The position numbers and the translations under genes are program-made. Source: Actinomyces wuliandei (GTDB lineage Bacteria; Actinomycetota; Actinomycetes; Actinomycetales; Actinomycetaceae). From it: a DNA stretch of 64,000 bases. Where the stretch lies: NCBI RefSeq assembly GCF_004010955.1, contig NZ_CP025227.1:2418001-2482000 (forward strand), in the 5' to 3' direction. Below are positions 26,627 through 57,827 of the stretch, one piece after another (position 1 is the first letter of the stretch; every line of letters starts with the position of its first letter). The notes beneath the pieces were generated by a model. That model was not told the DNA's origin. It worked only from the letters and a program-made list of their open reading frames with translations, and made no database searches.

Positions 26627-27290
26627 GGTATTAGCCCTCGTGAGTGGCACCGGACCGCCCGAGACCCGCTACACGCGGTAGGCACCCAGACAGCATCATC
26701 CGGCGGTCTCAGCATACGTCCCTGCATGACGTACAGGACGTGCTCCTCGAACGGCCAGCGCCTTATTTCTATGCTATGCGATAACAAGAAAAGCCTAGCA
26801 ACCAGCGTCGCAGCGAGTCAACCACACGGCGAGACTCGTCTCAGGTGCCCGCCGGAGGGGTTCGGCGCCCGTCCGGAGCCGCCCGCGAGGGTCGGGACCG
26901 CCACAAGGCACGCCGGGGCGCCTGCCGGGACGACCCGGGAAGGACAGGAGCAGGGCCGCTGGACGAGCTGCACATCTTCGGCCAGTTGTCTGCAGCGCCA
27001 CTGGGACAACGAGACACCGGACTCGTCGTACTTCTGCGGAAGACGGCTCAGCCGCCCCCAGACCACGTGCCACGACCAGCCCCATGATGTGCACCAGGCA
27101 GGCCGCTGCACATCATGGACTCTGTGCAGCGAGGGACCCTCCGCGCCCCGCTCACCGGCCCCGGCGTGACCCGCAGAAGCACGCGGATCCCAGAATCACC
27201 CCCAGCTACGATGGATGAGTCGGCCCCTGCCCCATGCGACCACCACCCCGAAGATGTGCAACCCGGCTGCCCACCCGGCACCCGGTACGT
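26627..27290. other. Gene-poor stretch between FabZ-like and PPTase genes
   Basis: 664 bases without a convincing gene. The 26640-26815 part is relatively AT-rich for this genome (for example TATTTCTATGCTATGCGATAA near 26763, a few bases at a time) and may include a promoter. The rest is the dispersed element copy A, and a separate copy of its core block, CGAAGATGTGCA, at 27249-27260 in the opposite direction. Confidence 0.6.
26817..27118 (-). repeat. Dispersed intergenic element, copy A
   Basis: Read on the minus strand this non-coding stretch carries, in order, a hairpin (12-bp arms 27107-27118 and 27082-27093, loop 13 bases), CCGTCTTCCGCAGAA (27046-27032), AAGATGTGCAG (26978-26968), CACCTGAGACGAGTCTCG (26847-26830) and GTTGACT. 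The same blocks occur in the same order at 57.55-57.83 kb with almost identical spacing for the first three (36 versus 37 and 68 versus 68 bases) and the last two (24 versus 25), although the sequence between is mostly different. No transposase or convincing gene is inside. Confidence 0.8.
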
Positions 27291-43749: not shown

Positions 43750-43960
43750 CTGCACATCTTCAGCGCACCAGGGGGTCTGCCGACCAGGCGCTTCCTTGGA
43801 AGCACGTCCCGGTTACCCTCTCAGAGAGGCTGAAGATGTGCAGTAGCATCTTTTCTGCACATCTTCGGCTCCACCTCCGCGTCCTCACGCAGCGGAAATC
43901 GAGTCTTCTCCTGCCGTGGCAAGGCTGCTACGCCGCACGCTGGAGGCCGAAGATGTGCAG
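43750..43960. repeat. Array of four GAAGATGTGCAG motifs in alternating orientation
   Basis: CTGCACATCTTCAG (43750-43763), CTGAAGATGTGCAG (43830-43843), CTGCACATCTTCGG (43855-43868) and CCGAAGATGTGCAG (43947-43960). The middle two form a 14-bp hairpin arm pair with 13 matches and an 11-base loop. The motif is the same as the internal block of the dispersed element at 26.8-27.1 and 57.5-57.8 kb, so these regions are related. Confidence 0.85.
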
Positions 43961-57550: not shown

Positions 57551-57827
57551 AGTGCAGGCCCCATGATGTGCAGCAACCTTCCTGATGCACATCATGGGGC
57601 CTGCACTGGTGCACGGTCCGTACGGTGGCCGATCCGTCTTCCGCAGAACCACGGGGAAGTCGATGCGTCGTCGCCCCAAGGGCACAGCGGGCAGCCGGTT
57701 CAAGATGTGCAGCAGCAGGGGAGCCAGCGCCCCCCGCATCCACGATTTTCCCGGGGAGCCCCGGATGAGGCGCCAACCCCCTCTTGTCTTGCGGCCACCT
57801 GAAACGAGTCTCGTCGCGGGGTTGACC
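57551..57827 (+). repeat. Dispersed intergenic element, copy B
   Basis: Starts with a perfect 22-bp inverted repeat (57551-57572 and 57586-57607, loop 13 bases; inner arm CATGATGTGCA). Then CCGTCTTCCGCAGAA at 57634-57648, AAGATGTGCAG at 57702-57712, CACCTGAAACGAGTCTCG at 57796-57813 and GTTGACC at 57821-57827. Order, orientation and most spacings equal copy A (26.8-27.1 kb, minus strand), including the 13-base loop, while the sequence between blocks has diverged. No gene or transposase is inside. Confidence 0.8.

Follow-up and report, generated by a model that had tools for sequence, protein, structure and literature searches.

Arrays of opposed half-sites in the window

The stretch analysed here, referred to as the window, comprises 64,000 nucleotides of the Actinomyces wuliandei genome (NZ_CP025227.1, positions 2,418,001 to 2,482,000) and carries three arrays of a short half-site, GATGTGCA. 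This half-site is present 12 times in the 64-kb window against 1.66 expected occurrences, a number that none of 100 shuffles reached, and 11 of the 12 occurrences make up the three arrays. The original prediction, made from the sequence alone, had described two copies (A and B) of an intergenic element sharing five short blocks, the first of them a hairpin, and all five were found at both places in opposite orientation. Both copies are real; a third array at 43751-43959, which shares only the half-sites with them, had been overlooked. The supposed hairpin is indeed an inverted-repeat core, a pair of half-sites opposed over 13 bp, but it is a fragment of a larger four-site DNA array, TGCACATC-unit-GATGTGCA-N13-TGCACATC-unit-GATGTGCA, of which it forms the centre. 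Block 3 (AAGATGTGCAG) is a copy, in outer position, of the same half-site as in block 1, and block 2 sits halfway along a unit. Conservation ends directly beyond the half-site, whose consensus is YGAAGATGTGCARC. In the loci that were read the half-sites come in the order minus, plus, 13-bp spacer, minus, plus, usually with two units and at times with one or three. The sites in the window are listed below, with unit lengths here and throughout measured from start to start of the half-sites.

26969..26980, minus strand: left outer half-site of copy A (block 3), TGCACATCTTCG on the plus strand
26969..27093: unit 1 of copy A, 117 bp, with block 2 at 27032-27046
27082..27118: core of copy A (the supposed hairpin), consisting of CCATGATGTGCA, 13 bp (27094-27106) and TGCACATCATGG
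27107..27260: unit 2 of copy A, 146 bp, off the 11-bp ladder of lengths described below, with the right outer half-site at 27253-27260
26969, 27086, 27107 and 27253: starts of the four half-sites of copy A
43751..43842: unit 1 of the third array, 84 bp
43835..43863: core of the third array, GATGTGCA-N13-TGCACATC
43856..43959: unit 2 of the third array, 96 bp
57565..57593: core of copy B, GATGTGCA-N13-TGCACATC
57586..57711: remaining unit of copy B, 118 bp, with the outer half-site at 57704-57711
57565, 57586 and 57704: starts of the three half-sites of copy B

The span first given for copy A took in the core and one outer half-site, and the fourth half-site lies beyond it. On the far side of the core of copy B there is no exact fourth half-site. 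Blocks 4 and 5 do not belong to the family: block 4 has 0-1 mismatches in A and B, as against 5-8 of 18 in its best match within 450 bp in the six other arrays of the same ATGG subfamily that were caught by our scan. By eye, blocks 4 and 5 of A and B look like a promoter region (TTGAC-N18-TAGGNT). The two copies share CACCTGARACGAGTCTCG (26817-26847, 57796-57813 and neighbouring positions) together with this promoter-like sequence, which is directed away from the array; neither was seen in the six other arrays, and the combination is perhaps the site of a separate regulator.

A nuclease fusion gene beside the arrays

When the genes beside 154 arrays in 11 genomes were compared, one gene family was found to adjoin arrays in seven species whose arms differ. 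Its product, of about 300-320 residues, combines an AbiEi-antitoxin fold, recognisable as the two-domain AbiEi fold, with a Vsr/EDxHD-like nuclease fold that has conserved acidic and histidine residues, the acidic ones being invariant. The family has Pfam matches under curated cut-offs, and searches of NCBIfam and PHROGs gave nothing usable. The gene's neighbours are either panD-lysS-like genes or a phosphatase-like gene (names assigned by eye), which makes two chromosomal settings, and inspection by eye of the neighbours viewed revealed no obvious partner nucleotidyltransferase toxin gene.

We define clade 1 of this family as proteins scoring at least 380 bits, plus a 229-bit C-terminal piece in genome G004. 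It is present in 20 of 49 genomes of the genus, and arrays occur in 17 of these 20 and in 7 of the 29 genomes without it (Fisher p 3e-5, with no correction for relatedness). Each of the 21 clade-1 genes found, two of them in the A. wuliandei genome, carries an array core at the 3' end. In 19 of the 21 the start of the core lies at -13 to +58 relative to the stop codon; for A. wuliandei gene a the figure is +175, and the reading frame of the G062 gene continues through the core. The left outer half-site lies within the reading frame in 20 of 21 cases, and in 19 of these it encodes GVAHS, GLARS or similar, as judged by eye. Species with no TGTGCA core at other places, among them G005 and G025 with GTGCG in their cores, likewise have an array at the gene end. 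Gene-side arms vary in line with the protein tree and agree with those of the dispersed arrays where the two were compared. In other genera of the family, homologues scoring at most 238 bits were found in 28 of 80 genomes, and no inverted repeat with a 13-bp spacer was detected downstream of 30 such loci by a scan that missed 4 of 20 clade-1 loci that have arrays. Several of the lower-scoring paralogues from various species (L311-L320) are followed by a different inverted repeat, GAGGGCCGGG ... CCCGGCCCTC, which could be a terminator or another element.

The A. wuliandei genome contains two gene-array pairs, gene a at 2957544-2958449 and gene b at 2349442-2350365, whose adjacent arms differ. 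Two sets of arrays go with them: 38 belong to type a and 8 to type b, the latter comprising 5 exact ones and 3 with one mismatch. A close relative, G018, whose flanks are 86-99% identical, has only gene b plus one distant paralogue. Each of the four b arrays known in G018 has an orthologue among the b arrays of A. wuliandei, with spanning alignments 94-97% identical. No a-type core, with up to 3 mismatches allowed, was found in 400 kb of G018 where A. wuliandei has 8; this region retains two single a-type units whose ends are intact, plus a decayed remnant. Two A. wuliandei arrays with two units each (L099 and L097) have as their counterparts in G018 one unit with intact ends (L387 and L382); arrays may therefore gain or lose single units, growing or shrinking beside an existing end.

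Spacing of the half-sites

The 13-bp inner spacer was set by the search pattern, yet it is also found in 18 of 21 gene-adjacent arrays that were located without that constraint, the other three (G060, G062 and G063) having 14 bp. The lengths of the units are stepped: in A. wuliandei they cluster at about 73, 84, 95, 106, 117, 128 and 162 bp. The best-fitting period is 11.1 bp for 72 units (R 0.895, as high in 0 of 2000 jittered sets) and 11.0 bp for the 56 units with unrelated interiors (R 0.929, as high in 0 of 5000 sets). Among 107 units of G035, 29 are 73 bp long, 70 are 84 bp and 5 are 85 bp. Four orthologous array pairs of A. wuliandei and G035 gave eight differences in unit length: 0, -10, -10, -11, -11, -22, -22 and -32. 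Between G024 and G035, 12 of 13 comparable units are equal in length; the remaining one is off by 6 bp in G024, a genome without a clade-1 gene.

Copy number and spread

In the 3,107,761-bp single contig of A. wuliandei the exact core GATGTGCA-N13-TGCACATC is present 38 times, three of them in the window, and an absence of further copies, which the original prediction named among the findings that would refute it, is thereby decisively disproved. There are 57 exact cores in G035, 12 in G024, 1 in G020 and none in 55 other searched genomes, and the reversed pattern has no occurrences. The wider core TGTGCA-N13-TGCACA has 47 copies in A. wuliandei; of 213 genomes in the family, 31 contain it, namely 24 of the 49 in the genus, with up to 57 copies, and seven outside it, with 1-2 copies each. 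CGTGCA-N13-TGCACG, considered as an additional core, was rejected, being present 0 or 1 times per genome, the same as its control. Of the 55 stretches returned by a search of GTDB contigs, which may omit records near the genome of the window, 51 are from Actinomyces bowdenii, and the four single matches elsewhere were taken as chance. Viral contigs gave 4 matches.

In 84 of 85 arrays the middle of the core falls between predicted genes, predicted coding sequence being 79% of the window. These 84 arrays occupy 24 divergent, 12 convergent and 48 co-directional gaps; by eye their neighbours have no shared theme, and their orientation to genes is not fixed. A role as sites of chromosome organisation near an origin was considered. 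Among the cores listed, those at 0-0.5 Mb and 2.06-3.1 Mb of the A. wuliandei contig seem by eye to be denser than those in the middle, a distribution not seen among the cores listed for G021 or G024.

The arms are specific to species, with, for example, CCCATGTGCAGAG in G022, CTCCAGTGTGCAACGAG in G014, GGCTCCCATGTGCATGG in G021 and GATGAATGTGCA in G017 and G032. Of the possibilities raised in the original prediction, a non-autonomous mobile element fits best, copies at unrelated loci being present in the relatives. Array pairs from unrelated loci that are more than 75% identical over more than 120 bp spanning the core, mostly over 200-300 bp, are numerous in G021, G022 and G014; in each of G032, G015 and G017 only one of three pairs passes this filter. 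Many pairs in G021 and G022 are 75-90% identical, the closest pair of all reaches 98.6% over 292 bp (G014), and the few longer matches are wider duplications. In A. wuliandei and G035 the unit interiors have diverged past recognition, with half-sites and phasing retained. At orthologous places, 7 of the 12 arrays of G024 have matches among those of G035. Only 5 sampled A. wuliandei arrays match sampled G035 arrays, and array positions therefore turn over. Two G035 loci (L148 and L153) are three-unit arrays that arose by tandem duplication of a unit plus spacer (94 and 105 bp), and in G020 (L269/L271) an inverted 744-bp stretch, 99% identical, bears an array and has short tandem repeats on its flanks.

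Probable recognition as DNA

The base that follows GATGTGCA in the arrays of A. wuliandei, G035 and G024 is a nearly free purine on each side. At these opposing positions (spacer positions 1 and 13) we counted 36 G-C, 25 G-T, 24 A-C and 4 A-T combinations, that is, 40 complementary against 49 non-complementary; the odds ratio of 0.24 (p 0.015) is the opposite of what pairing would give. Ten more arrays carry other letters there. The flanking TGAA/CGAA choices also combine freely (38, 17, 13 and 8). Because the opposing half-sites do not covary, the arrays, as far as their sequences tell, are protein-binding double-stranded DNA and not structured RNA. The structured or regulatory RNA put forward in the original prediction was not borne out in other respects either, since an Rfam scan of the window matched only tRNAs and the arrays have no set orientation in their gaps.

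Discussion

Our results suggest that the arrays are a REPIN-like family that appears to be read, and probably also spread, by the adjoining nuclease. We lean towards the explanation that they are dispersed, non-autonomous double-stranded recognition DNA of the AbiEi-like/Vsr-EDxHD-like fusion protein, whose nuclease would spread them in the manner of REPINs. Binding of the half-sites by the AbiEi-like part and looping within the unit are well supported by the pattern of sites. The winged-helix AbiEi-like part would bind each half-site of about 15 bp, and the proteins at the two ends of a unit would meet through looping of the intervening DNA. Loops between bound proteins require spacing in whole helical turns, which would account for the stepped unit lengths; DNA loops in E. 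coli are reported to have about 11 bp per turn (PMC8501960). Two units 13 bp apart could then make one four-site complex, in which the homing-endonuclease-like domain may nick or cut DNA at the ends of arrays or at targets, with the result that intergenic sites gain copies of arrays or retain them. The autonomous element would be the gene together with the array at its end. A more ambitious reading, offered tentatively, is that of a new category of genome-resident system, in which a fusion of an antitoxin fold and a homing-type nuclease reads dozens of looped, helically phased chromosomal arrays, and the recognition sequences of a genome's arrays shift together with drift in the specificity of the protein, so that every species has a private code. 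An attP-like site of a tyrosine recombinase, considered from the anatomy alone (a 7-bp centre plus arms), was dropped as the cognate gene is nuclease-like; no integrase search was made.

Several observations weigh against the explanation we favour. Cores are found without a clade-1 gene in G024 (12), G015 (10), G032 (7), G068 (5), G013 (3) and G016 (1). Three of these six genomes have lower-scoring paralogues; G017, with 29 cores, has a gene stump beside an array. (Upstream of this stump, at L395, there are short repeats around GCAGTCCCCCTGCGGGGG that are CRISPR-like in look.) The perfect ends that G018 keeps on two single a-type units without gene a argue against strict dependence on that gene, and G018 cannot separate loss of a arrays there from their gain in A. 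wuliandei. No clean empty site or target-site duplication was recognised at the G014 pair L248/L250 or between A. wuliandei and G018, the flanks of which differ too much. A period of 10.5 bp still gives an R of 0.85 against 0.93 at 11.0, not sharply separated, and the exact pitch is therefore not sharply fixed. There are also units off the ladder: the right one of copy A (146 bp), one in G024 (78 bp) and one in G035 (165 bp).

A different reading of the same pattern is that the protein, cutting or not, serves the host by looping dozens of intergenic sites and insulating or regulating their neighbours, with selection keeping the arrays and spread being incidental. The retention of half-sites and phasing around diverged interiors, the orthologous positions shared by G024 and G035, and the role of AbiEi-family antitoxins as autoregulatory DNA-binding proteins (PMC7319586) all speak for it. 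Against it, no shared theme among neighbours was apparent by eye and orientation to genes is not fixed; positions turn over, recent high-identity copies exist, and looping needs no nuclease domain with invariant acidic residues. We regard this reading as a serious alternative, less likely than the first.

It is improbable that the arrays are ordinary miniature transposons or repeats with some other reader, linked to the nuclease through hitchhiking of one array that became fixed behind the gene. The six species with arrays and without the gene speak for that reading, and unit ends are inverted repeats as in miniature inverted-repeat transposable elements (MITEs); however, the gene-side arms track the protein tree and agree with the dispersed arrays where compared, two orthogonal gene-array pairs coexist in one genome, the association recurs at two separate chromosomal loci, and phased units with a fixed 13-bp spacer are not known as features of MITEs. 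Least probable by far is an RNA family. The core is a long, near-perfect inverted repeat in several species, but the purine and pyrimidine choices oppose pairing, and the whole-turn spacing is kept by sites that show no pairing within the unit interior.

The 11-bp ladder resembles a record, written in sequence, of how DNA is twisted in living cells, and seems to be maintained by selection on loops. The arrays also give an unassigned protein architecture, an AbiEi fold joined to a Vsr-like nuclease, a concrete DNA target and thus a testable role, for which two differing gene-array pairs in one genome, a close relative with one of them and species without the gene are natural experiments. The 13-bp and 11-bp rules, the genus-wide spread and the cognate gene are beyond what a reading of the window alone could see.

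Comparison with known systems

We know of no named family with this anatomy. The BIMEs and RIB elements of enterobacteria are similar in being intergenic inverted-repeat units around a DNA-bending site, and they differ in being built of REP palindromes, with other sequences and another enzyme. The original prediction had likewise named no family, and none was found in the literature searched; the work found on Actinomyces repeats and on DUF559/MTES_1575, including PMC3710099, gave no account of this system, subscription papers being mostly outside the search. Known AbiEi-family antitoxins, including Rv2827c, counteract a toxin and recognise repeats of 23 bp within the promoter of their own gene (PMC7319586), whereas here a nuclease domain is fused and the sites lie genome-wide and behind the gene. 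The EDxHD/Vsr homing endonucleases, such as I-Bth0305I (PMC3943268), differ from the present protein, which is AbiEi-like in part and goes with arrays dispersed by the dozen; the fusion gene was not seen in any intron, intein or phage setting. In having two sites on one DNA face separated by whole turns, the units resemble loops of the lac-type repressor (PMC8501960), but those are single operon loops and a genome here has up to dozens of putative ones.

The closest likeness is to the systems of REPINs and RAYT (TnpA-REP) transposases, which according to Bertels and Rainey 2011 (PMC3116915) are tens of short extragenic inverted doublets per genome, thought to be non-autonomous and mobile, with a dedicated single-copy enzyme gene beside a copy. 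Over-represented extragenic doublets and a copy beside a dedicated enzyme gene are found here too, a likeness of logic and not of kinship, and the arrays resemble MITEs in their terminal inverted repeats and in having homologous copies at loci that are unrelated to each other. In contrast to RAYT, an HUH (Y1) transposase, the enzyme has an unrelated fold, AbiEi-like plus Vsr/EDxHD-like; the RAYT family itself was not searched for. In contrast to REPINs, whose doublets are predicted to fold as hairpins in single-stranded DNA or RNA, the half-sites here number four, are double-stranded and have spacings fixed at 13 bp and 11n bp; the core, an inverted repeat, shows no covariation at its opposing positions, and the array overlaps the 3' end of a reading frame. 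Dispersed repeats with a dedicated enzyme are a known logic, and the anatomy described here looks undescribed; if spreading is confirmed, the arrays and their nuclease would be an enzymatically unrelated counterpart of the REPIN-RAYT systems.
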